Shown: one piece after another, positions 4,187-37,200 of the stretch
How the letters are laid out: every line of letters starts with the position of its first letter
Position numbering within the stretch: the first letter of the stretch is position 1
Source: Plazaster borealis
Lineage: Eukaryota; Echinodermata; Asteroidea; Forcipulatida; Labidiasteridae
DNA: 64,000 nucleotides
Assembly (NCBI GenBank): GCA_021014325.1
Contig: CM037472.1
Span: 4,588,001-4,652,000, forward strand
Direction of reading: 5' to 3'
The notes under the pieces: generated by a model
The model's input: only the letters and a program-made list of their open reading frames with translations
Databases searched by the model: none
Told to the model about the DNA's origin: nothing
Translations under genes and position numbers: made by a program

Positions 4187-4252
4187 CTGAAGATGCTGAG
4201 CTTCTTAACCAAGTCCCAAAGGTGAAAGTACTACGCAACAAGAAGAGAGAAG
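4187..4252 (+). CDS. GALNT: GALNT exon: N-terminal catalytic half, ending ..KKRE(G)
   Basis: A 66-nt internal exon between acceptor GACAG and donor GTAAAG. The first 2 nt finish a codon, then [21 protein letters not shown] follows, and the last base starts the Gly codon finished in the next exon. It matches the GALNT segment PED..LL..(I/L)PKV..LRN..REGL just before the DxH region (recalled family sequence). In the enzyme this is part of the GT-A nucleotide-sugar binding fold. The exon before it, which should end in a VDDxS-type motif, was not found between 1 and 4186, so it lies upstream. The small size makes it easy for gene finders to miss. Confidence 0.88.
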
Positions 4253-7200
4253 GTAAAGCATGAGTAACACCATCCAATATAACCCAGACCGGCCCATTAC
4301 TCATCATGTCAATTTAGTTTATTAGCACGATTGGCGACACTGGCTCATGCTTGGCCAGATTGCGTGCAAATGTCATTTATGTCCGGAAACTTTTCAAATA
4401 TTTGTCTTCCCCTCTTAATGATATTAATCAAAAGGACTACAGGAAATAAATGTTATGGGTTTACTTGACACACTTTGTTCTGGTCTAATGAAGCTTCTGG
4501 AAATAAATTGTATGGGTTTACCGGACATATTTTTTTCTAGTTTAATGAAACTTCTGGAAAATAAATGTTAGTTACACAGAGGCAGCATAAATCATTCCCC
4601 TAACCTGTGTAGTTATTAGTCTGGCAGATGATTAAAAGTAGTAGGGTATAAAGCTTCAAGTACAAGTTAAAGGGTCTTTATACGTTTGGTAATGACTCTG
4701 AAAATTAATGGCAATAAAAACCTATTTGGTAAGAAGTATAGCAGCTTTGGATAGTATAATGCATTTTGAGAAACTTTTGACTTCGAAGTACTGCAGGTAT
4801 GAACAAAGATATCAGTTTCTATCCAAAACAAATTTGAATCTGAGAAGCATTTCTGTCGAAATGTTTCTCAGATTGTTTATTCCAATTGCAGATTATTCTT
4901 CCTGCGTGGACATAACCGCTCCAGATTTTCGGCAATATCTAAAAAACGCTTCCACCGTTTGAAATGTTAGTTTTATGTCTACAACTATATAGGATTGAAA
5001 CAAACAGTGGGTTCCAATTACCAAACAAATACAATCCCTTTAATGATATTAATCAAAAGGACTACAGGAAATAAATGTTATGGGTTTACCCAACACATTT
5101 TGTTCTAGTCTAATGAAACCTCTGGAAAATAAACGTTAGTTACACAGAGGGAGCATAAATCTTTGTAGTTATTAGTCGGGTAGATGATTAAAAGTCGTAG
5201 GGTATAATTTATAAAGCTTCAAAGTACAATATCATGAAAGAAGTTCACCAGGCTGGTAAAATATCAACTTATCAAATGAATTTTCTACAAAACACAGCCA
5301 AGTTAAAGACTTTTCTTTTCAAGGAGTGATTTATTTCTTGTGGTCTTTGTAAAAAGGTTTTCAAAAAGGTGAAGAACTTGTGTATTGTTACAAATGCAGC
5401 TAAGAACTTTTTACATTGGGAAATATTGATATCCAAACCCTTTCATGGTTGTTTTTCCTTGTGATATGCTTTTTACAACAACAACAACAACAACATTTAA
5501 TAGTCACTCATGTTATGTAGATTTGTTAGTGTTTGAACAAGCCTTTGCTTGTTGGAATAAGAACAGCATGACCAGTCAAGACTGAAAATGTTGTAGGAAA
5601 AACGTTTAGCCAAATTAACATAAGGACTTATAGCAGAGATTTTCTATGAATTAGTTTACTTCTGCTATACTTCAAATATAAAATGCCAAACTGAAACAAA
5701 AAATAAGTTAACAAAAACTTGTTGAAAGACCTGGGATCAGCTCTCCCTCTTTGTCAACATGTTTGTCATGTGGTGCAATTTTTCGCCAGAATTCCGGTTC
5801 AATTTATAGATGCCACGCCGCGCTTTCTGAATGTAAACTCAGATGGGCTTTTGATCTGTCAGTGAAGACTCTCAGCTGCGTCCTCATGTAACAACTTTCA
5901 GTTTCCTGTGATTTTCTACCCCAGAGGGGATCAACTAATTTTACCCCCAAACTATGGCCAGATATAAATAAATTGAGTAAAGCCGGTAGCGTGTGCCGCG
6001 ACGGAACATAACAAGAAAAAATAACATATACTGATTCAAACACTTTCACTCTCGCTCAATTAAAGTTTGTTTTTTTCCTTATTCTCAAAAGAATACTGCC
6101 TTTGGCAAAGGACCCCCGGGTCTGTGAAATTAAATTCCCATTTCAAAACATCAACTGACAGACGGAAGTTCCACTGTACTTTTGCTCTGTCTTCCTTTGT
6201 GGTGGAGTCATCCAAGATTGATCATGTGACTGTAAATGTTGTCGCTTCGGTTGTTGACAACCTGTAGATTTATAAACTTGCAAATACGGTATTAAAGGGA
6301 CACGTTGCCTTGGATTGGGCGCTTTGGGCCATAAAACACGTTTGAAAGCATTTGTTATGAAATGAATGTGGTTGGAAAGATGTTCTAAAAGTAGAATATA
6401 ATGATCCACACAAATATGCCTCAAAATTGCAGGGTTTTCCTTTTATGTCGTGAACTGACACGGTCCGCCATTTTGTGGAACCAAATTTTTGGACTGTCAG
6501 TTCACGAAGTAAAAGGAAAACCACACAGTTTCGAGGCATCATTATATTCCACTTTTAAAACATTTTTCCAACCATATATTTATTTCATAAAAAACGCAGT
6601 CAAATGCTTCATGTACCTTTAAGTGAATTATTGTTGTTTCAGAACTATGTGATACAAAGTTAGGCTTTTTGTTGTTTTAAATGCATGCCTCCATATGTAT
6701 GATGGGCATGTTTTTAATGTAACATCATTTTGACACCTCTTTAGTATTTTATTTTGAACTTAAGTATTTGCCTTTATTTTAAAATGCACATGTATCCATT
6801 TTTTAGTATATCTTTAATTTTTAGAAGAGTACAGTCATTCCAATCCTCTAGGTTTCAAGAAACTTAATACACAAATAACCACTTCATAACAAATTATCGC
6901 TCTAATTTCCCTGAAAACAACATAAACAATATATAAATATTTTTTTATTTTATACTTTTGCTTAAAAAAAATAACAAAAACAGCTGTTGCACAAGTTCCT
7001 GTGTAAAATATTATTTTTCTTGGACAATCTCAATCACTGTATTTTTATTCAGCTTTTCAATCAATTTGACAATTCTTGTATCTTTAGTGTTCTAAACAGC
7101 CGATAATTTAAGTGACAAGCAATTTAATTCTTAATCATATTATAGTTTTTGCATAAATATATATTTTGTCAATTCCTTTCAGGTCTAATACGCTCAAGAG

Positions 7201-10200
7201 TACGAGGGGCAGATGCAGCAGGCGGCAGTATTTTAACATTTCTTGATAGTCATTGCGAAGCAAATGTAGACTGGCTACCTCCGTTATTACACAGAGTCAA
7301 TCAGGTTAGTCTGGGCATGGACCCATTAGCAGTGGTGTAATTTGATAATGGATGGATGTTCACACTCCATTGATATCGGTCTATATTTAAGGCTGTTCAC
7401 AGGACTCGACAGGAACTATAAACCATAGAATTCATTCACAGGCTATAGACCGATCCATACGCGCAAGTGCTGCACGCTGCCATGGCTGCGTCGCCATTGC
7501 TGGGGTGCTGGCAGCGCAATTTATTGTACACGAAGACATGGAAAACCCGTTGTCTGTTTTACTTTTTATGCGAATTAAGTGTCTTCCTCAATGACTTACA
7601 CACTTTCCCTGACAGGACAGCATGATCAAATAATGTAGAATATACTAATTAAATATTTGAAACTAAACAGACAGTGAATACTGAAATTCTGTCGAAAGAC
7701 CTTGCCGGTGTAACACATTTTTAAACCCGACCGTGCAGTTTCCGCGTCTATCACACTTAAACTCACCTATTGTATGCGCTGTTTTCAGGATTCAGTTTCT
7801 GTTTAGTTGTAAATATTTATGGTCAGTGTTCTGTACATCGTTATGTCATGCTGTCCTGTCAGGGAAATTGTGTAAATCGTTGAGAAAGACACCTAATTCA
7901 CATAAAAAGTTAAAAAGATGACAATTTGTCCATATCTTCGTGTACAAAACATTGCGCTGCCAGCGACCCAGCAATGGCGGCGCAGCCATGGCAGCGTGCA
8001 GTGTTGCGCACCTCGGATCGGTCAATACTACCTCGCAGATAGAAATGATCTCGATTGAATGTCCGCATCATTCTGTGTGCTGCCGACTTCTGAATTGCAA
8101 ATATGATTTCAGAGGGGAGTTTGTCCGGGAGTTCATGCATAAATTCCTATGAAATTGTATTATTTTAATGGATTCTTATCTTTTCTATTTGTCATGTGGC
8201 TTTGATATGTATCATCCGTGGCTTTGATTTTTCCATGACATTGTATGGAATAGACTCGTCTAGAAGAGCAAGCTTGAGGCATTAGTACTCTCCTTGTTAA
8301 ACCGAACTTGAAGCTGTAAAAATGTTCTGTTTAACCAGATTAAAGGGACATTATTTTTTTGAAGAGTGAATTTAATTTCATCCTCTAGTTAAGTTTTCAA
8401 TAAACAGACAATACAACCAACAATGTAATAATGCTAAATTAGATGGCCATGTTTTTGTCAAAAACAACCAAATACATTGGGTTGTCAGGGATTTTGTGCA
8501 CGATTAAAATATCTGCTCTTTAAACAAGCGAAGATGAAACAGTTGAACTTGAAACGATCACAAGGTTTGACCTACTATACTTGCACTCAATGAAAAGAGG
8601 TCATAGTAAAGGTCATGCTCTGAATTGACACTCATTTGTTTATGGGTAAAAACAAATATTTTCTCTAACCCCGATGCATATTTAACACCTATTAAATATT
8701 GTTGCAGTACCCACTGTTTAAAATATAGGATTCAAACTGCCTGTAGCTACTGGGCAAGCTCGGTGGTCTAGTGGTATGACATCTGCTCTAGAATGACAAA
8801 GGTTGTGGGTTTGAGTCCCACCTGAGTAATATGCATGTGTATTTTTGTTCACAGGACTCTGGAAAGTACCAAGTATTCATGTACAATGCTTAATGCACAT
8901 TGGTGTTAGGGTACCCTGATGTAAATTTAACATCTATTAAAAACAAAAGCCATGTCTGGGTGAATGGTGACGATTATTCAAAACAAAAAATGAATTGTCT
9001 CCAAACAAAATGGTTAAATATGCAACACTGTACATTTGCAGTGCAGCTGCTATAGAGAATTTAATCTGACATTTAATGTTTTAAAATAACAGCTGAATAT
9101 ATGATACTTATGTATGATTCATAATATTGATTTTGGGAAGAGTACATTCATTCGCATTTAAAAGGAAAAAGTCATCATACAACGTGTTTTGTTCATGTTC
9201 ATTGTGTGCTTGTTTGAGTATGGCAAATTTAACTACGAACAGTGACTGTTGGCGGACAATTTTCTCACACGCGGCTGTATTGCAGACAGAATGGTTTCTC
9301 AGCAAAGCAAATGATGCTGGTGTCAAGTTTATGAGAAAAAAAGAGCTTACAGAAGTATCTTCATATTATCTTTTTATGATCATTACCAATCGTGTATCAT
9401 ACCTTTAAAGAGCAGGTGGGCTGATATTTGATAGATAGGCATTGCAAAATTCCAGACAATTATTATTAGGTTGAGTTTTGTGGGATGTTTGACGTCAATC
9501 AGTCATCTACCTTCTCTGTGAATGTGATATGGCTGTACAAGAATGGTTCTTTATTATTATTACCTGCACATATGACAAAAAGTGTGACAAAAAGCGTGTT
9601 GTGGGGTGTCGTGGCTGAGGGAATAAGAACACCGCAGTCAAGCTCTGGTGTTTCTGATCAGCAGAGTGTGGGTTTGAGTCCCGATCGTGACACTTGTATC
9701 CTTAAAAGGACACGTTGCCTTGGAATGGACGGTTTGGTCCAAAAAAAGCGTTTGTAATCGTTTGTTATAAAATGCATATATGGTTAGAAAGACGTTATAA
9801 AAGTAGAATATAATGATCCACACAAATATGCCTCAAAATTGCGTGGTTTTCCTTTTACTTTGCGAACTAACACGGTTGGCCATTTTGTGGAGTCAACAAT
9901 TTGTCGACCGTGTTTGTTCACGATGTAAAAGGAAAACCACGCAAATTTCGTAACATATTTGTGTGGATCATTGTATTCTACTTTCAAAACATCCTAACCA
10001 TATGCATGTTATAACAAACGGTTATAAATGCTTTATATAGACTAACTCGCCCGATCCAAGGCAACGTGCCCTTTAAGCAAGACACTTTAACCATTATTGC
10101 TGCATCCTTCGGATGGGACTTAAAACCGTAGGTCCCATGTGTTGTGTAGTGCACTTAAAAGAACCCAGTGCACTTATCGTAAAGAGAATGGGTTCGCTTC

Positions 10201-13200
10201 TGTGTTCATGGTTTGATCGGCAGCATATTGCGCCACAGCACCTTGTAAACCATTACATCGTGCTATACAGGAAATAGGTCTCATACTTCAACACGTAGCT
10301 CCGCATATCCTTGCAGGAAAAAATACTGAGCGCTTGGATATGCCCATCGGGTGTGATAAAGCGCTATATAAGAACTCAGTATTATTATTATTAAAAAGTA
10401 TTCTGTCAAAATTTCAACAGAAAAGCCAATTGGGAGAGGGAGTACGGCCTCCTCTTGTCTTAAAATTGTGTAATAAATCTATGTTTTTCAAAAGAAACAT
10501 GCTAATTGTAAAACATCCAAAATAACTAGACTATCCTCACTTAATGGTGAATTGTTCATAGAGTTTAACAACTCGACTCAGTTTAGCGCACCAGACTCGA
10601 GCTCTGGTGTTTCTGATCAGCAGAGTGTGGGTTCGAGTCACGGTCATGACACTTGTTTCCTTGAGCAAGACACTGCTTTGTCCTTGGATGCTGGCAAGTA
10701 AAGTCGTAGGTCCCGTGTGTTCGCGTAAATGAACCCAGTTTACTTATCGTTAAGATAAGGGGTTTGCTCTGGGGGGTTTTCTGGCTGAAAACAAGTCTCC
10801 ATAACTCCATATATCTTTCGTAAAAACAATGTGAATATCAGCACCATGAGCGCCCATCTGTGGGGGATACCAGTGCTATATAAATGTTCATAAATAACAG
10901 TGAGACCAATTAAGAACTCACTCCGCGGCAGTGAAGTTAATAACGAGAAGTACCCCACGATCCACTAAGCAAAAGTAGTAGTCCCGACCTATTTCCTACC
11001 TTCCGCCCAAGTAGTAGTTAAGAAGCAGGACAGTTCTTTTCAGAACTTGGTAGTCTTCCGAAAATTCTACTCTGCGGCAGTAGAATACATAGCAAGACAA
11101 GTTCTCAAAGAACAAAAATCTACACAGCAAAGTAGATATCCCCACATGGTGTTCCAGCAAGCCAAATAGACATTGATACCCCACCATGCAATGCCTCAAA
11201 ACCTAAAACAGTAAACCTGTTAGTTGTTCATCAGTGATAATAAGTACAGTCACATTGCTAAAGGTGTGCCATGGAGACATTGTTGTAACAGCTGATCTCA
11301 CAAACTTGGCAAATAAGCAAGGCTTTCAAAGCTGTCTGTCATGTTTTGAGATCACTTGTGAAAATCGTGATCAATAAGGAATAGAGTTTCCACGTACAGT
11401 CTTGAAATAGTGTGAGTGTGCTGTGAAAATTGTGTTCTACATTCGGAGGAGTGAAATGAACAAGCAAACACGGTGCCTGTCACCTATGTGAAGAATTTGG
11501 ATGTTTGTTTTCTGAGCGAAGGGTGCATTACGTATCTTTCATGTGGAGATTATTTAGTCTCTTAAATAAAAAATGTTGAGAAAGCAAGGTGTACTAAGGT
11601 GTAGATCAAGGACTTGCATGAGATGCAAGTGAAATTGCTGCTAGTTTGAAGTAGCCGGTTATACAATCAAGCTTTGTCATTGAAAGCTATAACTGAGGTT
11701 ATTTTGCCATCTTACTAAAATGCCCCAAAACAAATATTACTGCATATGAACTTTTCATTCTCTAGATCTTGGAACTACTTGTAATTTGTAAATTACAGAA
11801 AGGAATGGTATTTAAAGGGTCTGTATACATTTGGTAATGACTCTGAAAATTAATGGAAATAAAAACTTACTTGGTAAGAAGTACAGCAGCTTTGGACAGT
11901 ATGATGCATTTTGAGAAACTTTTCCCTGAGAAGTACTTCGGTTATGCAAAAAGATATCACTTTTTATCTTAAAATATTTGAATCTGAGAAATTGCAGATT
12001 ATTCTTCCTGCTTGGACATCGCTCCAGATTTTCGACAAAATCTAAAAAAACGCTACCACCTTTCGAAATTAAATTTTAACAGGTTAGTTTTATGGTATAT
12101 ATCTACAATTATATAGGATTGAAACAAAGAGCGGGTTCCAATCACCAAAGTATACAATCCCTTCAGGCAATACTCCTTATTTATTTCAGATGTAGAGTTT
12201 TGACCTCGGGGAAAAGATCAGTAACAATTTTAAGATAGCACAAAAACTGATAATTAAACTTTAAGAATCCTTCACTGTTTTTTTCAGGAGCCTACAACCA
12301 TTGTGAGTCCAGCCATTGATATCATATCAATGCATACGTTTGCTTACACAGCTGCAATGGCCGACTTACGAGGAGGTACAACTTTACAAACAATTCAAAC
12401 ATCTCACTCAATGACTTCATTAACACAATCGCAATGCTCATCATGGGTCGCTTGTCAACCTAACTAATAATACTATCTCAATGCAGGTATACTTTTACCC
12501 TGACATCTTCTTCTCATACCATCTTTTCTCATAAAATAAGATCTTTTCCCGGCAGTGCATACTTCATATCATCGGTTCATAGTTTCTCATCTTTTGATCA
12601 TTTCTCCAAAGTTCTTTTTTCCTATTAACTTCTTATTGTTCCTGTCAGTTAGCTGATTTAATTGTTTTTTTCATAGAGGATAAAGACCAATCAGAATTAC
12701 ATCAAGTTGTTTGTAGTACCCACTGATTATGAAAGGATTCTTGTTACCAGGCGAGCTCAGGAGTCTAGCAGTTAAGACTCTACACTACAGAAGTTGGTGG
12801 GTTCAAATCCCTCCCAAAGTCCCTGTGGGTTTGTTGTTTCCGCATGACTCGGAAACCACTGAGGATACAGTGGTTATTGTACACCAGTGTAGGGCAAAAA
12901 TTTTGAACAATATTGCTCTCAAAACATACAGCCCTCTCATTCTTAAAATCAATGACAATTACATTTCCAGAATAAATCAAAACAGACCCACCAGGTCCAA
13001 TTTCATGGCTCTGCTTACCGTAAGCAAAGAATCGGCGCTTACGGAAGCAGGGAATTATTATGTCAAGCGTATTTCATGGGTTAGCAGATAATTTTTGCTT
13101 GTGCGCGTGCGTACCCCACGTTACGAGGCATTATTCGCTTACACAGCTAGCGCAGAATTTTGGCGCTTGTACATTAATCGGAGAATGGTGATCGTAAGCA

Positions 13201-16200
13201 GGGAATTATTATGTCAAGCGTATTTCATGGGTTAGCAGATAATTTTTGCTTGTGCGCGTGCGTACTCCACGTTACTAGGCATTATTCGCTTACACAGCTA
13301 GTGCAGAATTTTGGCCTTGTACATTAATTGGAGAAAGGTGATCGTAAGCGCAGAATTGGGCGATAAGCAGAGTCATGAAATTGGGCCCAGTTTGTGAACT
13401 GTCATGCAGGTGGCCATGTTTTATTAGTGACCTGCACTAACTGCTTGATCATACTTTAGACCTTTCTTTTGTGACGTCACAGCTGCGAGTTTTGCCAAAA
13501 GTACAGGCGACCATCACTGCCAAAAAAGAAGAAGCATTTTATCATTTATTCAAAATTCTATAAACACTGATGAATCAATGGTTTCCACCCAAAACAAATC
13601 GAAAGTACTTGATATTCTTCAAACCAAAGGGTTTAAATGCTTGATTAATAATGGGGAAATGTGTTCCAATCCAGGTATAGATTTTGTGCTACTAAAAGGC
13701 TGCCCATACAAAATGATTGTCAAAGTTTGAAAAAACAGGAAAACAAGTCTATGTGATAATGAAAGATAATTAGGGACGTGTATTTGTATAAAACATTTTT
13801 AATTTCAGCTTTATATGAAATACTATGTGATGCACTCAATTAGATGTCATGGTAGCAGCAGATGCCTTTGTACTCTACTGTAAAAATGTCATAATAGAGC
13901 AGGAGGAGAAACGAATCATACAAAATTTAACAAATTGCATCTGCCTTCTCTTCTGTTCCATAAAAACGTGGGTTTCTTAAAAATCGTTGCAGACTTACTA
14001 TTGATTTTTACTTCTTCCAGTGTAGGCCTAATGCATACTAATACAGATAATGCAGTATTTTACTTGAAGGTATAGTATGAGCGCCTGATATCTCACCATA
14101 CACGGCCTGGAATTTCTGAGCGGGAAACGCTTCAGTGACATTGAAACTCTCTTATCAATAACTGTCATCGGAATCAATCGGGGGAATTAAATGAGTGTAA
14201 TCTAGACTCTTGATGGTAGCTGCTGATAACTTCATATCCCAGGGTCTCAGAAATTTCAGGGCGTTCAAACTGGAGAGGCGTACATGATGACAGACGACAA
14301 AGGGAATTCAACAAGAAGAAAAAAAATCTTTCAAATGAGAGAAGCAAGCTGAATTTGTCCAGAATTTTGCAGAGTGTAACTCAAACGATCATGTTTCTGT
14401 TAAAGGAATGGACATTCTTTTGGTTGAATTTTCATAGTTTTCTTTTGGTTGAATTTTCATATTTTTCTCTGTGCTTTTATGGAACAAAGGGATGAACACG
14501 TATTTTAAGAAATGCCTTACATGTTATATCTGCATCAGAAGATGTCTACTGATAGTGTGTTAAAGTGTGGCTAACGCTTTTAACCATTCCTTTGTTGATA
14601 TGAATCAGGAAATGCTGTTCCATTTGATTGTACATACTTTTTTTCAATTAGTTTTTTTCTCATAAAGACAGAACTGACATCGTACAGCAAAATCTGGACA
14701 GTTACACTGATTATAAAGTATATATCACTACCAATTCTCAAGAGAAATGTTTGCAGCACTCTCAATGTTAAAGACCTAAAAATAATCACCGCTTATTTTG
14801 ATTGCTGTAATTTGAAATAAGCACAATGTGTGAGCGTGCACAAAATCCCTAAATAGATATGAATAACTTTCAGAGGTTTTTTTACCGCTAAAACAGGATT
14901 GCCCTTTTTGATGCCCTTTTTCTGATTATAAAGTAAATATCACTACCAATTCTCCTGAGAAATGTTTGCAGCACTCTCAATGTAAAAGACCTAAAAATCA
15001 TCACTGCTTATTTTGATTGCTGTAATTTGAAATAAGCACATTGTGTGACCGTGCACAAAATACCCACGAAAACATGACTAACTTTCAGAGTTGTTTCCCC
15101 CGGTAAAACAGGATCGCACATTTTCACAGGTTGTCTGTATGGTGTGTTTATTGAAAACTAGAAAATGGGAACTAATTTTCTCTTCAGAAAACAATGATGA
15201 ATTTTCCTTTTAACTGACGTCTTGCCAAGCATGAAACATTCTCATGTGGATATTCGTGCTATATTTCATTTACAGACATTATCCTTTGCTACCCAAAGGA
15301 TCTGAAAAAATATCCTTTATCTCGAAACCCCACCCCCCCCTCACTATCGACCCACGTGGTCAAAAGGTCACACTATTTCCCCACCATTTCTCTGTTAAAA
15401 TAACACAAATATATCTTCCAAATTACAACAAGTCAACAGATACAGCGTCACTGGATGGGATAGCACCAACATTTATTATCCTTAATTGGTGTCTATGGGC
15501 TTTTTATTAAACACTAACCGGTTTTCTGTCTTCTCTCTTTCTCTTTTTCCATCAACATGTCAACTCTTTGGGCTGCTTAACTTCTGACCAACTAACAAAC
15601 CAATCAACTGACTTTGAAAATCAACACATGCTACAATTGTGCAACTCATCACCTGTTCTCCAAACACTTCTTGAAACTCAACGCGATCACCTCACCGTGT
15701 TAACTTCATCTCATGTGATACTCCTAACACTCACTGTGTGTGCTTCAAATCTGGCGACACTCGACGTGTCAAAACTCCTCACATCTGATTTTCTCGGACA
15801 CCGTAACTCATCATGCGTGCCTCCATCACTAACATCTCATGAAACTCATGTTGCAAAATCGCACCTGTTACTCCTGAACCTTCGTGTACAACTCGGTGTG
15901 GCTCACTAACAATTTGATACTCACGGGAAACTCAATTCGCACTGTGAATTTCATCCCGACATTTAACCACCGCCAACATGCTGTCATGGAACTCATGAAA
16001 CTCACCTCGCTCCTGACGCTCATGTTGTGGGTATAACTCATCCTTACCTTCTAATACTCATCATGAACACTCGCCAGGATTCTACTCGAGTTGTGAGTCC
16101 AATCATAGATGTCATCAATATGGATACTTTTCAGTACATTGGGGCTTCTCCAGATTTACGAGGAGGTAACATAAAAATAACCGTATTTGTTTACCTCAGG

Positions 16201-22200: not shown

Positions 22201-25200
22201 TTAAACATCCCTAGATGCTTGGAGTTTAGACTGAGAGTGTGCAATGTACAAAAATAAGGGTCTGAAAGAAAAGTGGTTCAATTTCTCCCCTCACCTTTAT
22301 CCCCATTAGTACTTGTATGAAAATCGAATGAGATTTTTATAGAACTATACTGACGTTTGATTGTTTGTATTTTTGTCATGCAGGGTTTGATTGGAGTTTA
22401 CACTTTAAGTGGGAGCACATGCCCGTGGACCAGAGATCAAAAAGAAAAAGCTCTCTTGAGCCAATCAGGTATGTGCTTTCATTCTCTGGCTCGACCAATG
22501 GAATGCTTCCTTACCAAACTGGTAACCAATACGGATGCTTGTTACAATTGTGTCGTGTGTTCAAGCTACCTCTTGGCAAAGACTGTAGTCTTATTGTTGT
22601 TTGTTCACATGAAAATCATGCTACATGCAGGACTGAATTGAGTTTATAACGTTGACAACAAAATAAAAAATATTAATACAAAACGTTTAAAAGTAAAAAA
22701 TAAAAATATTAAAAAAGCAGGGTCAATTTCAAAAAGCTGGTAAACACACAAAAAATTGCTTAAAGAGGGGTTCTAGGATCAAATTCAGTTTTGTGATGTA
22801 CTCATTTTCTAATAGATAGGGTCCTTGTTGAAAGTGGGGGAAAACTACAAGTCTATAACCTCTTGTTAAAAGGGAGTAACAAACTATTTTATTTGATACT
22901 GTTTAAGAACAAAATTTGAAACATGATGTAATTGGATTTCATAAAAAAGGGATCCACACAGGAATTTGTCATTAGTCAAGAGGTCAACTTCAACAACGTT
23001 GAGATTAAAAAATCAAAACAAATCCAAGAATGAACAGAAAATTCCTCATACACAAATTGACAGACCCATGTATTTGAAATGTGACATCGTTGGATGATAA
23101 CAAATTTCACACTGGACGGGTATCAAATACAATGGTATTATACACCATTTCAACTTGAGGTTAGAGACTTGTCAGTTTTTCCCACACTTTCATAAGGACT
23201 CTTGGGAAAATGAGTGCTTCACAAAATAGAGTTTGACCTCAAGCCCCTCTTTAAGAAATATCTTTCTCTCTCAGCAGAAACCTGTGACCAGCCAAAATGC
23301 CATGTAGTCTACAGTGTTGTGACTGATGCACTGCTATTATTTCTTTGCTTAGCAATTCAATTTGTTGAGGACCATTTCCTGATTAATTGCTGTCATCAAA
23401 TTGATGACGTGTTTTACTCTCGAGGGCCAAATTACTTTCACATTATGCTTAAAGGCACTGGACACGTTTGGTAATGACTCAAAATATATATTAGCATAAA
23501 AAATTACTTGGTATCGGGCAACGGAGAGCTGTTGATAGTATAAAACATTGTGAAAAACAACTCCCTCTGAAGTAACGCAGTTTTTGAGGGAAAGGTAATT
23601 TCTCACTAAAATATTTGAATCTGAAAGCCTTTTTCAGGCAACTGAAAGCACACAAATTAATTGTGCAGCAAGGGTGTTTTTTCTTTCATCATTTTCTTGC
23701 AACTTGACCAATTGAGCCCAAATTTTCACAGGTTTGTTATTTTATGCATATGTTGGGATACACCAAGTGAGAATACTGGTCTTTGACAATTACCAAACAA
23801 GTCCAGTGCCTTTAAGCAAAGTTTATTCCTTTAAATAATAAATTTCTTTCTGCAAATACTAGCTAATGTCAAATTATGCTTACTGGTGAGGGGCAAGTTC
23901 CCCTCTTATAGGTACTGGCCAGAGATTTTATCTATTTAGCCAATCAAACAAGTGGCAATTCTGTCCAAACATATATGGGAAAAGGCGCAATGACACATCT
24001 GATCTGTAAATGCGAAAAATGCTGAGTGAGGAAATTGATTATTGATTCTGTGTTTTGCCACTGGCGTCAATTTTCTGGCGAGCTGTTGGGGATGTTTTCA
24101 TTTCACGAAACTGTATCCACTAGAGATTTGCCATCAACCTGCATGACTGCAGTAATCCAATACAAACGACTCGGAAATGGGAATTAAAGAATTGTCATGG
24201 AATAGGCAGCTATTTGGGAAAGCGCCAGCGTGATAAAATGTGATTGAAAAGTAGGAAGATAAATTGTACTTTAAGTTGTACAAGTTGGACAGGATGGTGA
24301 AGTTGGGAGGGGGAAAAAAACCATGGCGGTTACTCAAAAGCATTGCGCTGTTACAACGGCAGGGGGCAATCCCAATACTTAAGGTTGTATTCTTGATAAT
24401 CTAAGTAATATAAATCTTTTTTTTAAACCCCTTGTGTAGCCAGTGAACTGGTGGCCGGCATGGTCAAAGAAACAGTTATTAATTTTCCAAATTACATATC
24501 TTACCAGAAAACTACCCTAGTAAGATTGTCTTGAACAAACAAGTTTTCAGTTCTGGTCTTGAAATCATTCGCTAATAAATAACTTTGAGGTGGTTTTTTT
24601 ATGGAACATATGATTTTGTATAAGCCCAAGGCATTACTGAAAACACCTAAAAAAAATTCCACTGGGAACTTCTGATCATAGTATTTCTTTCAACCCTTTA
24701 ATGCAGACCATTACAGGTTGCAAGCAGCTTCGACTAAAATGCCCGTAGCAGCTGCAGACTGCTGCAGCATTTGACCTACTTCCACTCAACCAAAAAGGGT
24801 CTCCACAAAGTTCTAGTCCTGAAGTGATATTTTTCTCAGGTTTTCTTTGTTAATATTAATAATGCTTTCTACAATTGTAGTAAACAAAACATCATTTCTA
24901 TTTCATATCATTTTTTCCGGACATTTTCACTGGAAAAGAGCAAACAAATTGCTTTTTAAAAGGAGACCAAGGGATTGTAAATAACTGTTAAAAAAATAAA
25001 AACAGTTGCTCCGAAAGTACTTCACCACTTTTGACACTATAGTAATGTACTGTAGGTCACTACCCCCTCATGCACCCCAATTAGGAAATCCTCTTGATTA
25101 TTTGTGGCCTTATGTGTAGGAAAGACGCATTATTCTGTGACTTGGGTGATTGAAAGTGATAACATCAGCATTGTGTGATAGATTCAGGCATTTCAGTTAC

Positions 25201-28200
25201 GAACCTCTGTCATCAGACTAAAATAGAAGGCGTTAGGCTAGAGCACTAGAATGATTATTTTTGTGCTTTCAGGAAGTGTTGTTAATTTACTTTAAAGTTG
25301 GGGGCAACTTTGAATATTTTTTAAGGTATATTGTTTTCCTCCAGCTCTAAAACAGGAATGTTAGGGGGCCTACAACTTTTAGCGTGTGATATTAGCTAAC
25401 TCAACTTGCTACATTAAAATTTTAAAAAACGTATAAGTGACAAGAAGAAGTAAATGGAGGACTTTCATTATTTCGTGTTTTACCCATACACCGATGTGTT
25501 TTAAAGGGTCTCTACGCCTTTTGAAATGAAATTTTCACAGGTTAGTTTTATGGTATATATCTACAACTATTTAGGATTGAAACAAAGAGTGGGTTTCGAA
25601 TTACCAAACATGTACAGACCCTTTAAGCACTGTATACTCGGTACTTTCCAGAGTCCTGTGAAAACAAAATCAACATGCATTTTACTCTGCTCAAATCTCA
25701 ACCGAGTAATATGCCTGTTGGTTTTGTTTTCACAGGACTCGGGGAAAGTACTTCGTAAACAGTGCTGTGGGTAAAACACAAATAATATTCCTTATCCCCG
25801 AGTCAAATTTCACATCTGATAAAATTTGTGTATTTTATTTTGTTTGAACTTTTTTGTTTTAAATTTAGAACACCCATGATAGCTGGTGGACTGTTTGTTA
25901 TCAACAAAGACTGGTTCAACAAACTTGGAAAATATGACACAGAGATGAATATATGGGGAGGAGAAAACTTTGGTAAGTAAATTTCATTACTTTAGTTATG
26001 TGCCATCCCTCAGGCTCAAGGTTTTAGCCAGGATTTGGTAAAAGGGTGTCCAAATTTGCTGGAAATTTAAACACTGGGTGTCCAAAAGACACACAGACAC
26101 CCCTCTGGCTAACACTATGCTCTGGGTCAATGTTCCCACAAGTCGTACTAAGTCTCTGACACACCGGCAAATAAGCTATAGTACTTATTCTGTGTGAGAG
26201 CATTCTTCTATATGGAGCTGAAACCTGGACCATGAAGAAAAGAGCTTCAAGATCGCCTTGATGGTACATACACCCGGTTTCTTATGAGGGTGCAGAATAT
26301 CTCATGGCATGAGCACAAGACCAAAGAACAAGGTTTGCGGAGACATTCCACCAATCTCTGCAACTGTTGCTCAACGCAGAGTACAGCTGGCTACTGCTAT
26401 CATGCTGAAGACCAGGTCATACCTGATGTGTTATGTTGGAGACTTCCGTGCCCTATTGAGGTCGTAGACCTCTCAACTACATTGATGTGATTGGCAGAGA
26501 CACAGAATCTTAAGATGAGGACCTTCCAAACATGATGATGTATAAAGACTCCTGGCGTGATGTTGTAGTGAATGGGATCTTGGTTCGACGGCTAAATGAT
26601 GACGATGACTTATTCATCTTATTCATTGGTTTGTCAGATTTAGTTTAGCTCATTTTTTGGTATGTCGACTAACTGATAAGACTCTTCTTTGCAGATGTAA
26701 GGCTTCGCAGGGTATCTGAGTCCAGTTTCATCTAGTATACCCTCATCAATTTGAATAAATGAATCTTTCTAAAACGAAGAGTTGACAATGTCTTTAAAGC
26801 AGCTGATATGCAGTGCTTAAGATGTTCTCCTTTTTCATTTCATAGCTAGCCACAAAGCATGAAGTTGTTCCAACTTGCCATACATAGTTAGGCCTTGTCC
26901 GAATTGGTGGCTACAGCTATGGCTACGGCTAGATTTCCACATATCATGCATTGAAATGTATGTCTTTAACAACACCCTTAGCAACAGTCGTATCCGGAGC
27001 TGTAGCCGCCAATCCGGATAAGGCCTTACTTGCAAATGAGTAACACAAACATTGCACAACAGCCTTATACTGAAATGTTTATGCTTTGAGATCAGAATTT
27101 TTATTTCACAGCTTTGTTAGCACAAAAGGCAGCGTGCAAACCTGCTGCTATATTGTGCACTTAATTAGTGCAACATAACAAAGCCTTTGTGAATGTGCAC
27201 CCTAAATAGTTTGTTTTAAAATACTTTATTCGGGCGTATCACAATACATACAAAAATACACACAGTTTGTTTCTGTGAAATAATGAAAGGATTGTGTATT
27301 GTTGAGCATCATAATAATTTCACTGCTCCACCACCGGTCTATAGTCACTGAGGGACAACTACAACACCCTGAAACTAAAATAAGCATTTGGTGAATTTCG
27401 ACTCAGCTGCAAATCATTTGGGGAATTGAATTATTGTGGCTTGACCTGAGCACTCTCACACTGTAAATTCCTCCTCACTCACGATGAGGAAAGCAGACAT
27501 TTCTGCCATGACTTTCAATCAGAATTCAACCATTATATTCAAAGTCCAGAGAGGTTGGTAATCTAATAAATCACCGGTGTCCTTAAGGACTTGACCTGGC
27601 TAGGGTTGACTTACGATCATGCAACAATTGGACCGGCTCGTTTTTTATTCAAGAACATTCAAAACTCCATTGCCAAGGGGCGAATTATGTTTGAATTCAC
27701 AGAACCTTCAAAAAAGTTGTTCACTAAGAAATCTTTAAAATCTAATTATAAAAAGAATACATGCTAACAAGTACAACCCCAACCTAGTAGTATGCATGTG
27801 GATTTTTGTTTTGTACAGGACATGGGGGAGCACTGAGTATACAGTGCTTATCACAAAAGGTGTATGGTAAAACCAAAAAATAGTAAAGATCAGTTTTTGG
27901 AAGAGTTCATTCATTTTCATCCTCTAGTTTTCAAAAAACACACCATCCATTTATCAAATTCAGTGGTAAAAACATTGACAAAACAAGGAAAAACTGTTGT
28001 TTTGTCAAGGATTATTGTGCATTTATAATGTGCTTATTTCGATTGGGAATGGTGACTTTAAGGGTCTCAATCTATTTGCTTAACTTTTGGCAGTATCTCA
28101 GAGGGACTCAGAAAATGGTCGATAATGCAATTGCTTCTTTGTTGGACATCCACCTTAAGTCAATTGCACTATAATCAAAGGGCCTTTTATTTTGACAAAA

Positions 28201-31200
28201 AGTGACCTCCGCCTATTATGTTCTAACTTCCTGGCGAAATACAGAGGGGACTTCATTTCCATCCATAAACAAGAAGTACACTGCAGGCCCCATAATCAAA
28301 ACATAAGTTTACTTGTGATTTCCTACTGAAAACATGAAACATCACTACCTTCCCGCTTTTGGCAATTCCATTGGGGACAAATTGTTGTGAGTGGTTCCAC
28401 CCATTCTGATGATGTGATGACTGGAAGTTCCATTGTCATTGGAAGGTCTTTGCCCTTTTTGGGGTGGGGGGGTGGCATTTGCTGTTGTTGAGAGTTGATT
28501 CCCTGTAAAGCACCACCATTAACACAACTTAAGGTATATTCAGATACAAATAATGCAAAGCGGGATACAGAGTCAACAGTCCTAGATTGTGAACTACTTC
28601 CAACAGATTAAGAAGCAAGATGCCCACAAGCAAAAAAAGCAATTGTTGTCTGATATATTCATCAACAACAACATCACAATACAAACCTTTTTTCTGCATG
28701 TTCTTCTGATAGAAATCAATGGGCATTGAATAGAATGTTCATATTCTCTGCAAATTTTCTTTGCAATCGCTGTAGGGACCGTTCAGAGTTTTCAACAACA
28801 TCTTCAAGGTCATTTGAGAAGGAGTTGAGAGAGGTTGTCAGAGGCTGTGTACAACTTTATAAGCTGTTAAAGTTCTGGATATTTCCACAATAGAATCAAT
28901 GCAGGAAACACTAAAATTGTGGGGGGGAATAACAGAACAATCTAGCATGCCCTCAAGTTGATTATGCTGTCTGTTGTTGTTGTTGTTGTTTTTGTTGTTG
29001 TTAGGGGTTTTTTGGAGGGGAGGATTTTGAACATTGTATTAATAAACATTAGTACTGATGACCACACAACTGGGGAGAGAGGGAGTTCTACATATTGATG
29101 AAACATTGGATGATCCTTTAAAGCTATTAGTTATAGTTTATATAGTTTTGGGTTGAGCTAAGACAAATCGACTAGAGCGGCCACTTCCTAGGTTAAACTT
29201 GGGTATGATCCCTGGCCATAAAGCAGTTACAGGTTGAATGGCTTCTGACTGGCACCCCCCCCCCCCCCCGAACAAAGATAATTAACAATTAGGGAGACCG
29301 TCAACATAGGGCTAGATAGCTCAGTTATATAACGCCGGCATGTCAAGCCGGAGGTCGTAGGTTCAAGTCCTGCTCTAGTCAATTTTTCTTTGTTCAACCC
29401 CAAATTATTAAAAAATTTACCCAGTCAGTTTCTCTTGTGGTTAATCACTTGACGGTTTATAAAAACAGGTACTCAAACATGTGGCTGTTATTCACTTTTG
29501 AGAAAGGGTGTTTTCCCGTTACTTAGTCATCATTTGTTTATCACCCTTTTACCATGTGCCCCTCTCCTTTCATGTCAGTTACTCATGGGTCCTCTTTGAA
29601 AAACAAAATTTAATAAGAACATTTGTTTTTAAGGGCAAGTTCATGAAAAAGGTCCCCTTATAGTCCCATCAGTAACACACCGTGGGGTTTTTTCAAGACA
29701 TCATTTCTTGTTGGTATTCTGTTTTTCAGATGCCCAGCAATATAATAAAAATTACTGAAATCATTGACTATTGTAATTGCTTTTCAGACAGTTAAACTTT
29801 CTGAATGTCCCATACCTGACAGCGCAAATTCTTGGACTTGCTCTTTAATATAGGAAAGCTGATTAAATCATTACTTATCAAGTCCCTTGGTTTATTTCTA
29901 CAGTATCTGGACATTTTTGAAGGAGACAAACGAAAAAATATATTTTAGTTATCTTTTGTTTTCTTTCTTTCAGAAATATCTTTCAGAGTATGGCAATGTG
30001 GCGGTTCCTTGGAGATCATACCTTGTAGTCGAGTCGGCCATGTTTTCCGCAAGAAACACCCGTATACCTTTCCAGATGGAAATGCTAATACATATATCAG
30101 GTACTCAGCCTCTGCAAATAACTGCTACAATAATTGTTCCATACAAGTTACTACAAACTAATATTGCTTTGATTTATTTTTTATTTTTTGGTCAAAGTAA
30201 CATAATTGTTGTCTGCAATTTAAAGACAATTCATGAAAGCCAATGTTTTATAACATTTATTATTTAAGAATCTTTTAAAAACTGGGGCGGATTGCAATAA
30301 AATGGTCTTAGGCAGCTGTCTAACAGTTACTTATAGCCAGCTATCTGCCTTATACCATGGAGGTAGAAATAGTTATACAGTCTTAGCTTAGTCAATCGCT
30401 TTGCCTGTTGCAATAAGCCAGTCTTAGATAAGTCAGTGAGGAGTAGTGAAATACATGTACGAACAAGCATTCCTAAGCTTGGTTAGTTACGATGGCCGCC
30501 ATTATCCATAGCACACTGAGACAGTGACAATGGCTTTGAAATGTAAAACAAAGATCAAACATTAGGCGACCAGCCTGCAGTCAAACAAAGAAGTTGGCAC
30601 TTGTAGAATACATGGTGTGTTTGTTGAGAAATACAGACTAGTTGGATGTGTGTTTGTTGAAAAATGACTCTTCCAACCAACGTTGAACTTTTCCTTTGAG
30701 GTGAGCATAACAAAACATGCAATCAGAGAGGCCTAACCCAAAGCCTGTCCTGGAGAAAGACTGACGTTTTTCCAACAATCTGATTCCCCTCCAAAAAACA
30801 AAGTCCCTTCCAGAAACTGAATAATATCCCGTATCTTATTAGATTATCAAAGCCATCTGATTGCCCTACGGATGAGATGAACACATGCCATCTCCTGATT
30901 GAACACAATCCTTACAAGGATTCCTTTGTCTCTACACCCCTAGGGTTGCGTCTTCGCACTATGACCAGAGTCATGTCCCAGACGCCAAATTTCCAGTGGG
31001 AAAAAATATGCAGTGCTGCACGAAAACAATTTTATAACAGGGGTAGACAAAAAGCACTCTTTTAACTGGAGAGACAGTACTGTATATACAATATGCTCCA
31101 GCATTTAAGCTCTGAAATTATTCACCATATATTTAGTTTTCACAGAATACTGATAGTATCATCAGTGGATTCTATAGCATTGTTTCTTTGTATCAGCCTC

Positions 31201-34200
31201 CATCTTCTTTCAAATTTAAGACATGAAGAGCAAATAATTTTGAAGCCACGTGAGTGCGTCCATGTTTGTGCACAAGCCTGAAATTAATTTGTACAGTTGT
31301 TGCACAGCTAGTGCATATTAGTGCTTTCATTCATTTCTGTGCATTCAATCATCTGTAAACAAATAGTAAATGTGCATTTACTGTTGCGTGCATCTCTATA
31401 TGCATGTGACTAAGTTTCAGCAAGAACGAAAGTTCTCTAAAAAACAACTTTGTTCCGCAGTCATAAATACACCTTGACCTTGCCTCGAAGGAACAAATTT
31501 GCGGAAAACTATTGTTTTGGAAACGACACTGTGAACATGTCTAAAAGGACCACTACTAGATCCCATTACAAAGTGTAAATTTGAACTATTTGGACTGAGC
31601 TGGATTGTGCATTTTGTGGTGGCTTGAAGATCGAAGAGCGGGGCAGGCTGATGGCCACAAACAAGTCTCTTATAAATGCATATGTCGGATTAATAAGCAC
31701 ATTAAACTTTGGAGTTTCACGGCAGTATTCAAGGCAAAATAAAGGATGACACATGATGCGTGTTCCACCAATCAAATGATAAAGATCTCTGTGTGTGTGC
31801 GGTATATAAATAGGTCTATTACTGGAAGAGTTCTGTCAATTGAACAAAACCAACCAATTTAATGAGTGGCAATCGGAAAAGTTGATGGTTCCGAATGCAA
31901 ACTGCACTTAAGATTTAAACCCAACCTTTTTGGAAAAAGGAATCCATCGTCCGTGTCCCTGTGGAGGATACAAGGGATCATACATGATGGATAACATCAC
32001 CTGATGGTGTGATAGTGAAGACAGACTTGGGGGGGAAGCTCTAAGCTAGTTGTTTTCAATAGAGGAAAGACCGCAACGGGTGGCAGCAGGTCACCTTCCC
32101 AAGAGATGACCTGGATGCAAACACATGCAAGGGTTCTCAGTCATTTCTTTCCTTGATGGTGATGATATTCACCTTTAGAGTCACATCTGATAATGACGGC
32201 TTATTTATTTGATGTAGAGAAACTTTACAAACTGCGATTTATTCCCACGAGTTATGGCTTAATCAGGAAATAATGAACAAATAAGTCTCATTCCACTGGC
32301 GGATCTAGGGGGTTTGGAGTGCGGCGCGCAACCCAACGGCAAAATTAATCCGACATATACATTCATGGTAGAATGGTTTGTGGCCCTCAGCCTGCCCTGC
32401 TCTTTGATCATCAAGCCACCAAAAAATGCACACGGCAGCTCAGTCCAAACAGTTCATTTATATTTTGTAATGAGATCTAGTAATAAGTCAGGCTTTTTAA
32501 CGCATGTGGCTGTGATTGGTCAACACCTTTAGGGGTTGAGCTTGCAGATTGGTCTCTTACAGCTGATATCCCTCCTTAAAAGGCGGGAAACTTTTCATGG
32601 AATTAATATTGTATACTTTATCACACAGATTTCCGCAATTACCTTTGAATTTATTGGCGTTTTTGTTTTTTTCAGAAATACGAGAAGGACGGCTGAAGTA
32701 TGGATGGATGAATATAAACAGTACTTTTACAATGCCAGGCCCTCAGCCAGAGGAAAACCCTTTGGAAAGTAAGCAGTTATAAAATTGTTTGATTTTTTTC
32801 AAATATTGGATTTGATGAGATGAGATGAGAATGCTGTATATTTATGGTATTTTCATATGGGATATGAAGAATATGACTTTCGAATATGAATATGAACATG
32901 TAAGTGCGCTGCGCGTCTTGCAAGGGGTCAATACAGGTAAGGATCTATGAATTTATGTTGGTGTTTGCTTTTATGGCATTGTCTCTTGCATGATTATTCT
33001 CTAAATATGTTTTTCTCTGGTCAAGTTCGATTAAACTTTGCTTTCAATAAAAAATTTGTATTTTAATTCATAATGCTTTTTGTTATACTTTCCCTAATAA
33101 CAACATGATATTGACAAGATATTAGTTTTTAACATCATAAACCGGGTCGGAAGCTAGCTTGGAAAATGTTTGTTGATATTTTGACACTTCCAAACTTCCA
33201 AACAAGTCATATCCCTTGCTTTTGTGTTTGCATTTGGAAATGTGAGAGATTTTTTTTTTTAAAGATGTGATTTTCTTTTTATGCAGTATTTAGTAACTAT
33301 TCACACATTTTCCTCTCAAAATTTCAGTGTGGAAAGCAGAAAAGAATTGAGAAATCAATTACATTGCAAGTCATTCAACTGGTATCTTAAAAACATCTAT
33401 CCAGAGTTAAGGTGAGTAGAAATGGGAGCTGTCAATTGTTTTTACATTATCTTCAAGCAAACTTGAATCCTCGATTCTGATTGGTTGATCCATGGCAACA
33501 ACAGTGTAGGGATTATATACATCTATATATAAAACTAGTAGGGGAGATGGCCTTAGCTTTCGATCCAAACCGGACCTTCATCGAAGGCATAAGCAAACAC
33601 AGACACAAACATATCTATTTGTAGCAAAAAGAGGAGCAAAGGATTTTGGGAAGGTATCCAGGAAAAAAGCGGGGGAAATAATATGCTTTTTATACAACTT
33701 CTGGTGTCAGCCTTTCGCCTTTTTAAAAAATTGTTTTAATGTGGTCATTTGTTGTGGCTGGAACATAACTTTGTTACCTTCACTATTTAGTAACTGTTTA
33801 CTTTGTTTTAGTGTTTTGCATGTATCTTTTGTACCATTTTAATTTGTTTTATATATTATTGTAACATTCTAGCAATTCGGCCTGTGGCCACAGATGGAAT
33901 GTAAATAAACCAACACCAATATCAAACCATATTGCAAGGTCCACATCACATCCCGTTTATTGCACTGTTCTTACTCTGCGTATTGCGCTATTTGAAGCTG
34001 TGTGTAGTTAAGTCTGCAACGTAGTAAGAATACGGAAAAATATAGCAGGTCTGCATCCCATCCAACTCGGCCTTTAGCCTCATTGGATATGGGACACAGG
34101 AATTGTATATGTTTCCATATTCCACGAGTGCACGTATGATAAATAATATTAAGCATTAAGTTTGTTTTAAGACCATTAAACAGATAGTAATTTCCTCTTA

Positions 34201-37200
34201 TAATGGGGAATTTTCAGGTACTCTAGGTGGCAGCAGACTTACTGGGTAATTCCATTATTCAAAACTCTGATGTTTCTGATCAGCAGAGTGTGGGTTCAAC
34301 AATCTGGTCGTGGCACTTGTGTTCTTGAGCAAGATCCATAATTGCTTTGTCCTTAATGGGACATTAAGCAGTAGGTATAGGTAGTAGGATTGGTAGCACA
34401 TTAAAAGACACTGATTCTTATTAGTTGGCAGATTTGACTCTGGATGCCCTTGGCCCACTTGATTTAGTGCTTACCATTTGCTGACTAAGGCTCAAATAAC
34501 ATTTTGATATTTTAACATTTTTATATCTGAATATGAATTTATTTAATGTGTACTGTTTGTTATCATCCATTTTTATGAATGTCTTTTTGTATTTGTGTAT
34601 TTGTTGTCTTTCTGGGGGTTTTGTTTTGTACAATTGATAAAACTAAACTCTTAATCTCTGAATATTCTATTTATTTTTGATTCAATGCTCAAGTGACTTA
34701 TTTGTATATGCTGTTTATTCTATTCTCTCAATTCTTTTTCTTTATAATTTAGGTGATCAATTTTTTAAGTTTATCAATATTATTTTATGTAAATTCAAAT
34801 TGTATCAGCCCTCAAACTGTTTTTATCAAATATGATTTTCGGTAAACCATTTCAATTCAATTAAAACAAATACTGAATGAGAAAAACATGATGGTTCACT
34901 TCACCCTTGAGCTTTATTTTGTTTAGAGAGCTCCATTTTGTTTTAGAGAGCTCTATTTTGTTTTAGAGAGCTCTATTTTGTTTTAGAGAGCTCTATTTTG
35001 TTTTAGAGAGCTCTATTTTGTTTTAGAGAGCTCTATTTTGTTTGAGAGAGCTCTATTTTGTTTTAGAGAGCCCTATTTTGTTTTAGAATAGGCCTATCTC
35101 ATGTAAAAAAAATGTATGTCAATGGAATTTTAAAGCACTGTAATGATAAAGCAATGTGTAGCCCACGTCTGTAATAGTTCGATGACTACTAAAGATTAAC
35201 AAGCTCTTCTCAACTTTTTTCTCTCAACTCCTGATTCGCAGAATTCCTGCTCCAGGAAATGTGCAATATGGAAAGCTACAGCAGGGGGAGTTATGTCTGG
35301 ACTCGGCCCCTAAAACTACCGGAACCACGTGGGCTCCCTCTATTATACCATGTGAATTCCAAGACGAAAACCAGGTTGGTTTTAGCTGCTCACTTTTTTG
35401 TGACAGAAAATTCTTTTCTTTCTTTTTTTCTTGGGGGGGGGGGGGTTGACACTTGCTGACCAGTGTTGACTTCCTGTCTGGGACACTTGTCATTATTATA
35501 CTGTAAATTGTTCGGACATGTTATCTGGGATTAAGATACGTGAGTGGATATGAAATACTTAGGAGTGTTTGAAAATCTTAGCATCTTTTTTGTCAAAGTT
35601 TATTCTGATGAATAAGTATATGTCCCGTGGTAGTTTCACTGATTAGGGACAAATGACTCCAAGGTTGAACTTGTACAGTTCAGGATCGTGCAATGTGTAT
35701 GTTTGAACCTGCCTGAGGAAGAAGTCCACAAAGTTTGACCAAATAGCCCAAATAGTACTTCACATTTAAAATATATACGATAGCAAAACTGTTTTTGAAG
35801 TGAATCGTTCAAATGATTTATTCATCCAATATTGTCAAGAGAATATAAACAACCACTAAAACCATGGGTTGCAACTTTATTCATTTTATTTATTTAGTTA
35901 TGATTATTATATCTTTTCCAATTTGTAGGCGTGGTCTTTAACGAAGGAAGACACCGTTCAGCAGCAGTTCAAGTGTCTTACAGTCAGCTCGTCTGTGCCT
36001 GATACTAGAGTTTATCTTACTTCTTGCCAAAGCAATGAAATCAAACAGGTACTTCCATTCTGTCATCCTAACTTGACCCTTAAAACTTCCGGTGAACTTG
36101 AGACAGGACTGTGTGGTTCGTCACTGTCCAATTTTATGCTTGACAGGCGTGGCTGGGTTAAAAACTCATCAATGCATCAAGGTTTTTTGTGAGTGGACAA
36201 ATTAATGAATTGATGTAATGATCATATCATCTTGTGCCCAGAAGGACGTAAAAGGTACCGGAGAACAGCGTAAGCAATGAATGTGCAATATTTGTGGAAG
36301 TGTCGTGGCCGAGCGGTTAAGAGCACCGAATTCAAACTCTGGTGTTTCTGATCAGCAGAGTGTGGGTTCGAATCCCCAGCCGTGACACTTGTGTCCTTAA
36401 GCAAGACACTTAACCATTGCTTTGTCCTTCGGATGGGACGTAAAGCCGTTGGTCCCGTGTGTTGTGTAATGCACGTAAAAGAACCCAGTGCACTTATCGA
36501 AAAGAGAAGGGGTTCGCCCCGGTGTTCCTGGTTGTGGCTGCTGAATGCGCCGTAGCACCTTGTAAAAAACATTATAAGGTGCTACATAATTGGGTCTCAT
36601 AATTCATAACTTCAATAACCCATCTTTCTGTTTAAAGTATATATACTAAGTGCCTTGAGTACCTTGTTTGGTAGATACGTGCGCTATATAAGACTTCGAT
36701 CTTATTATTATTATTATTGTGTTTCAAGAAAACTGATCGTGAAAGTTTGATCGGTTTTCTGCCATTCTTAAGTCATAATAGGAAGCTTAAATTTGTGTGA
36801 GAATGGGAAAACTTGTCTTTGGGGTAATTCTAGCAACAAAAATGCAACAGTAATGCTATATATATTTTAAAGGAGCGATTTTTTCGTTTTCGGTCATTTG
36901 TTGTTGGAGAAAAGTACTTTAAATGCCTGGAAGAAGGGCGTAGGGCCTTACGCCCCTTTTTGGGGCATTCAACGTTATCATGTACTGGTTTTAAATCATT
37001 TTTACCTTGATCATTGTAAATTTGAAATCCAATTCGAGCTGTGAAATTTTTAATGTTTAATTAAACGAAAAAATCTGCACCAAGGCCTGAAGACAATGCC
37101 TGAATAGATTATTCTATCATTGGTTATCAGTAGTTAGTTATCATGGTTTTTTTAACCTCCTGAGAAATACAACAAAGAGCCAACAGCTTTAATCCATGTA

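Follow-up and report, generated by a model that had tools for sequence, protein, structure and literature searches.

A polypeptide N-acetylgalactosaminyltransferase (GalNAc-transferase, GalNAc-T) gene of the GALNT14/16 group in the sea star Plazaster borealis contains two homologous exons, A and B, that encode alternative versions of one piece of the catalytic domain. The gene lies on the forward strand of the stretch analyzed here (the window: 64,000 nucleotides (nt) of contig CM037472.1, positions 4,588,001 to 4,652,000, assembly GCA_021014325.1). The exon pair is real, as confirmed by the observations described below, and mutually exclusive use is its most likely mode. We consider it probable that A and B form a mutually exclusive pair, derived by tandem duplication, that tunes the peptide choice of the enzyme, an arrangement that is ordinary in kind and new in place. 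The pair is located between two constitutive exons:

7183..7304, + strand: constitutive exon 5' of the pair, 122 nt, AG/GT flanks; ends in LLHRVNQ and contains a DSH motif
12288..12375, + strand: alternative exon A, the divergent form, with a polypyrimidine tract of 13/15 and the weak donor gag|GTACAA; form shared with Asterias amurensis isoform X2
16078..16165, + strand: alternative exon B, the conserved form, with a weak polypyrimidine tract of 8/15 and the donor gag|GTAACA; like Acanthaster isoform X1 and Diadema
22384..22468, + strand: constitutive exon 3' of the pair, including the equivalents of Phe280 and Trp282 of human GalNAc-T2 (T2)

Each of the two exons is 88 nt long and lies between AG and GT, with a phase-0 junction at its start and a phase-1 junction at its end. 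Between the two, 16 of 29 residues and 57 of 88 nt are identical. The initial annotation of the window had described two intact 88-nt exons of the same phases and protein position, 16/29 identical and 3.7 kb apart, and had stated that double use or skipping breaks the frame. Both descriptions were borne out: the intervening sequence measures 3702 nt, splicing A and B together leads to a stop after 122 amino acids with seven junctions downstream of it, and skipping the pair leads to a stop after 93 amino acids with six junctions downstream. Since the frame is broken by both exons or neither, A or B alone is the sole productive choice. The pair therefore shows the features by which tandem exons are recognized, namely neighboring homologues of equal length and phase whose joint inclusion or joint omission destroys the frame. 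Chance similarity was ruled out by two comparisons. When exon A was compared with 88 stop-free segments of the form AG-88 nt-GT from both strands of the window, B agreed in 16/29 residues and the runner-up in 4/29, and a tblastn search within the window with A found B with an expectation value (E) of 1e-7. Beyond these two, tblastn revealed no further copy in the window (next best E 0.17).

We infer that both exons are used, with splicing from 7304 to either 12288 or 16078 and then to 22384. Transcripts containing both exons, or lacking both, would have a premature stop and would probably be destroyed by nonsense-mediated decay, which alone would enforce a one-or-other readout. Two other bases of exclusivity were discarded. 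The intron between A and B is 3702 nt long, so splice-site crowding in too short an intron cannot account for it, and the donors are unlike the U12-type consensus (judged by eye), which excludes U12-type incompatibility.

The gene was rebuilt using human GALNT2 as the probe, and the exon borders were read off the DNA. Besides A and B, there are 10 exons (4187-39758), all preceded by AG and the first nine followed by GT. Insertion of either A or B between 7183-7304 and 22384-22468 gave one uninterrupted 390-residue product; the count runs from the window's first exon to the stop codon that closes 39606-39758. The other exons are the following:

4187..4252, + strand: coding exon of the GALNT14/16-like gene, 66 nt, AG/GT flanks; first exon in the window
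25869..25972, + strand: coding exon (34 residues)
29974..30100, + strand: coding exon
32676..32768, + strand: coding exon (30 residues)
33328..33411, + strand: coding exon (27 residues)
35242..35374, + strand: coding exon in which the ricin-type lectin domain begins
35929..36048, + strand: coding exon, lectin domain
39606..39758, + strand: final coding stretch with the rest of the lectin domain and the stop codon; no donor follows

We take the DSH motif in 7183..7304 to be the metal/UDP (uridine diphosphate) motif, and 29974..30100 presumably encodes the catalytic flexible loop region. The search with the human GALNT2 probe found no match to the N-terminal part of the protein within the window, and exons earlier than 4187..4252 would lie outside it, to the left. 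In the part encoded by the window, which begins downstream of the start of the catalytic domain, both isoforms scored above the Pfam cut-offs for PF00535 (GT2), PF02709 (Glyco_transf_7C), and PF00652 (ricin-type lectin), with nearly equal scores for A and B. This order of a GT-A catalytic domain followed by a ricin-type lectin domain predicts that both isoforms are polypeptide GalNAc-transferases (GT27).

Database proteins carry either form. A search with residues 58–100 of isoform A returned one protein from one candidate, P0001, which is an annotated, full-length NCBI entry (polypeptide N-acetylgalactosaminyltransferase 16-like isoform X2 [Asterias amurensis]). This database prediction represents the same gene and carries exon A's version of the segment (27/29) within the same protein context, being identical to isoform A at 382 of 390 residues over the window-encoded part. 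NCBI derives alternative isoforms from transcript evidence, and the label X2 implies another A. amurensis isoform. The search with isoform B yielded 6893 proteins from 7971 scored candidates, of which the best 120 were listed. Second among the matches listed was Acanthaster isoform X1 (P0002), which has the B form (25/29), as does the sea urchin Diadema (25/29). Thus, among single predicted proteins, A alone is present in A. amurensis (P0001) and B alone in Acanthaster (P0002). When a profile of four segments (two A-form and two sea cucumber segments) was searched, 291 proteins were obtained from 459 candidates, and the A form was not found among the matches listed (best 120 of 291). Altogether, 236 of the 240 retrieved records contain a segment that agrees with A or B at 12 or more of 29 residues. 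After P0001, the highest match to A is 21/29, and every record reaching it resembles B at least as closely. A is the better match in five of the 240 (P0001, fish P0033, P0051, and P0058, and the unnamed P0200).

The A. amurensis protein also bears on whether the pair could be an artefact of assembly or annotation, in which an exon of a paralogue was misassembled into the intron. We regard this as very improbable, because P0001 comes from another source and places the A form in the same surroundings. In addition, no duplicate was found in the window for nine of the 10 other exons (no hit below E 0.05; the test omitted the last exon because of its stop), and the 1000 nt on each side of A and B share nothing outside the exon (next best E 0.54). 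The dissimilarity of the flanks indicates either that the duplication is old or that the flanks were never part of the copied unit; a recent duplication including intron flanks was set aside, as no flank similarity was better than E 0.5.

The divergence of the two exons suggests that both have been under constraint. The Nei–Gojobori (NG86) estimates over the 29 codons were 0.37 for the nonsynonymous rate (dN) and 1.01 for the synonymous rate (dS), giving a dN/dS of 0.37. In 500 codon bootstraps, of which 477 were usable and 23 failed or were saturated, dN was smaller than dS in 465 of 477. We regard this as moderate evidence for constraint, drawn from 29 codons only. Seven columns of the segment (P, I, D, I, F, Y, and G) are invariant in 36 aligned homologues, and all of them are retained in A; the 36 include P0001, itself of the A form, and exon A of the window carries the same seven letters. 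These results bear on the possibility that the pair is mainly an abundance switch, in which skipped or doubly spliced products are sent to nonsense-mediated decay and the residue differences are neutral. An exon of 88 nt leaves a remainder of one on division by three, both wrong products stop early, and the splice signals of the pair are weak, as such a switch would have it. However, A retains the seven invariant residues despite 13 replacements in 29 positions, dN/dS is below 1 in most bootstraps, and a single 88-nt exon would already suffice for a decay switch by skipping. We therefore think such a switch quite unlikely.

The splice signals were scored using a simple weight table. Among the 11 donors scored, that of A was the lowest (-1.23) and that of B the fourth lowest (1.85). 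The polypyrimidine tract of B (8/15) was the poorest of 12, and that of A (13/15) was good. Weak signals of this kind fit regulated exons and prove nothing. Around exon A there are also sequences that could pair. Inverted arms lie close to it on both sides (12189-12219 and 12540-12570, 31 nt, 71%), which might be a splicing hairpin or chance. Farther out, 8392-8517 and 14820-15159 contain inverted short repeats (77–87% over about 30 nt) on either side of exon A, and their pairing would loop out the exon. The arms in 14820-15159 fall partly within a 215-nt tandem duplication (14707-15114) and partly next to it, and both sets look like repeats.

The initial annotation had read the pair as a swap of a GALNT16-like and a GALNT2-like piece, so that one invertebrate gene would make two isoforms mirroring two vertebrate paralogues. 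One gene with two alternative exons is indeed what we found, but the mirroring is not supported. In a midpoint-rooted tree of 28 chosen rows, GALNT2, cnidarian, and three unnamed rows separate with a support of 100/99, and the starfish gene groups with echinoderms, hemichordates, amphioxus rows named '16-like' or '14', and vertebrate GALNT14/16; the order among the echinoderm, hemichordate, amphioxus, and vertebrate GALNT14/16 rows is weak (62/42). By this tree, the whole starfish gene belongs on the GALNT14/16 side. A sea urchin fragment, P0150, carries the GALNT2 signature FDWNLVFKWDYM and is 73% identical to human T2 and 64% to the starfish gene; its greater resemblance to T2 indicates a separate GALNT2 in at least one echinoderm. 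Lytechinus shows a GALNT2 among the matches listed from the profile search. No sea-urchin-named protein besides that of Diadema was among the matches listed for isoform B (best 120 of 6893); the other urchins may have lost the GALNT14/16 gene, or the listed matches may simply omit it.

The exons themselves were compared with three sets of segments: GALNT14 (33 distinct segments from 54 rows chosen by name), GALNT16 (three distinct from 23 rows by name), and GALNT2-type (34 distinct from 49 rows with FDWNLVFKW, plus human T2). The mean BLOSUM62 scores of exon B were 108, 107, and 109, respectively, and those of exon A were 92, 92, and 78. The best matches of A reached 21/29 in GALNT14 and 18/29 in both GALNT16 and the GALNT2-type set. 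The best single match of B was of the T2 type (26/29, versus 23/29 and 22/29 in the other sets), but its means show no real preference for GALNT2. Judged from these scores, B is the conserved form, and A has diverged, with a lean to GALNT14. The lean of A to GALNT14/16 over GALNT2 is in favor of the annotation (92 versus 78), but it is strongest toward GALNT14, and A is not closer to GALNT16 than B is (92 versus 107, with three distinct segments). In the consensus lines, A has Ala262 and Ala265 like GALNT14 and 16, Ile255 like GALNT14, and Ser257 like GALNT16, and a grouping of A with vertebrate GALNT14/16 survives the approximately unbiased (AU) test (p 0.365). Because B outscores A for GALNT14, 16, and 2 alike, the mirror fails, and with the whole gene on the GALNT14/16 side and a separate GALNT2 in the sea urchin, a correspondence of A and B to vertebrate GALNT16 (or 14) and GALNT2 is improbable.

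The age of exon A was examined in a tree built from the 29 columns with 17 rows. In it, the two A rows group together with a support of 89.5/95, and they adjoin the two sea cucumber segments in a grouping supported by only 49.8/59. An asteroid-only origin, in which A groups with asteroid B, gave p 0.036 in the AU test, and the Kishino–Hasegawa (0.076) and Shimodaira–Hasegawa (0.166) tests did not reject it. In 100 data sets simulated under this origin, the likelihood difference was at most 6.96, below the observed 7.17, in a test that was chosen after inspecting the sequences and in which both the A and the sea cucumber groups are on long branches. Removing the shared Met or Pro column lowered the difference to 3.1 or 3.7. 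In the whole-protein tree, the sea cucumbers are placed beside Diadema, and it is only this exon that hints at a link with them. The likeness may possibly be convergence after loosened constraint. It seems somewhat unlikely, though worth entertaining, that exon A is an old alternative exon that predates the split of starfish and sea cucumbers and has a descendant still present in sea cucumber proteins. That split dates back several hundred million years; if the origin is that old, a splice choice at the peptide groove of GALNT14/16 would have been kept for as long.

The sea cucumber proteins P0005 and P0006 are GALNT14-like, the latter carrying no name and being placed so by the 28-row tree. 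They have FSW in place of the FDW found in at least 90% of the 36 relatives aligned, and their exon segment has Pro and AM.DLRGG in common with starfish exon A.

A study of human GalNAc-T2 (PMC4432651) attributes its peptide specificity mainly to hydrophobic contacts of Val255, Phe361, His365, Leu270, Phe377, Phe280, Trp282, and Tyr284. The swapped exon corresponds to residues 244–272 of human GalNAc-T2 and includes Val255 and Leu270, two of these eight groove residues. We presume that T2 244–272 is one strand and a loop bordering the peptide groove. A and B differ at 13 of 29 residues, among them 259, 262, 264, 265, 267, and 268. The segment had been annotated as running straight into the FDW acceptor residues; the next exon does start with FDW, but the listed contacts there are Phe280, Trp282, and Tyr284. 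Each isoform would be a full GalNAc-transferase in which the groove-bordering strand and loop are exchanged, and because the swapped segment touches the groove, a switch in peptide preference is plausible. Its most likely use would be to set, tissue by tissue, the range of mucin-like peptides that is glycosylated, as reported for fly pgant5.

Several observations weigh against a regulated pair that changes specificity. The A form occurs in only one of the 240 retrieved records (P0001, 27/29), and no B-form A. amurensis record was found among them; these records were clustered at 90%, which can hide isoforms. Exon A deviates at T2 positions 248 and 259, which are nearly invariant among relatives, and between isoform A of the window and P0001 it has changed at 2/29 residues, versus 6/361 elsewhere, so that its constraint may be looser. 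The interval of dN/dS (0.12–1.01) reaches 1.01. The direct change in groove contacts is small: A has Ile at 255, where T2 has Val, and Leu270 is kept. AlphaFold models of P0001 (A) and P0002 (B) have low confidence in the segment in both forms and decide nothing (mean predicted local distance difference test scores overall, 71.4 and 72.4).

Some of these points would be expected if only one exon were used and the other were a decaying or silent duplicate, most simply with A rare or B lost in Asterias. A is less conserved than B and deviates at the two nearly invariant columns, and the pair includes the weakest of the 11 donors (A) and the poorest of the 12 polypyrimidine tracts (B). In contrast, the frames and splice dinucleotides of both exons have stayed intact at a dS near 1, the seven invariant residues are present in both, and the A form is found in an annotated A. 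amurensis isoform and the B form in Acanthaster X1. We accordingly judge single-exon use unlikely and retain alternative use of A and B as the preferred reading.

Other sequences in the window were noted in passing. Three transfer RNA (tRNA)-like sequences lie within GALNT introns (8757-8829, 29310-29381, and 38958-39030, + strand); the Ser tRNA-like sequence has the lowest score of the three (34.6 bits) and may be a short interspersed nuclear element or a pseudogene. An open reading frame of 140 codons at 52571-52993 (+ strand) encodes a Ser-rich stretch, one hydrophobic span, and then a basic stretch, resembling the end of a single-pass membrane protein; at E 0.001 it matched nothing in Pfam or PDB. 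A satellite-like array of seven copies of a 139-nt unit (93%) occupies 60275-61249.

The pair had been annotated as previously undescribed. No description of it was found in the literature searched (titles and abstract openings), and PMC13317027 contains no mention of GALNT, but the A form is already present in the NCBI A. amurensis isoform. Should both exons be in use, one more GalNAc-T gene (GALNT14/16), beside the pgant5 type and pgant9, would tune its substrates by exon swapping, and the swap would be at the groove wall, a site not described as spliced in the parts of the literature consulted. It would also be a way of diversifying the enzyme in an animal with, to the extent observed, one GALNT14/16 gene against two in vertebrates, and its 13 residues would be a compact natural experiment on the determinants of GalNAc-T peptide preference.

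Exon swapping itself is known in this family. In PMC9741552, GALNT13, Pgant5, and gly-5 are given as tandem duplicated exon substitutions in vertebrates, fly, and nematode, and most such shared substitutions are interpreted as convergent. The starfish pair would likewise be a tandem-duplicated exon substitution in a GalNAc-T gene, but none of those genes is GALNT14/16, and the Pgant5 exon is located elsewhere. Drosophila pgant9, according to PMC6115407, has a tissue-specific choice between exons 8A and 8B in the lectin domain that changes charge and substrate preference. It resembles our pair in having two alternative versions of one exon of about 30 residues and differs from it in position and in acting as a charge switch of a lectin-domain loop. 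Another close parallel is Drosophila pgant5, a GALNT1 orthologue, whose splice variants PGANT5A and PGANT5B swap a homologous catalytic piece (residues 398–457) according to a preprint (PMC12776162). There, the isoforms are reported to differ in gland expression and peptide kinetics, one residue in the swapped piece alters activity on salivary mucin peptides, and the gland is partly rescued by 5A and not by 5B. The pgant5 piece comprises the catalytic flexible loop and a helix-turn-helix, which is another part of the domain in another paralogue, and its expression and kinetics have been measured. The starfish gene would likewise exchange a homologous catalytic-domain piece at the peptide site. 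The starfish pair, if used as we propose, would extend the pattern of repeated exon swapping in the family to a paralogue (GALNT14/16) and a site (the groove segment) that are new as far as we have searched.

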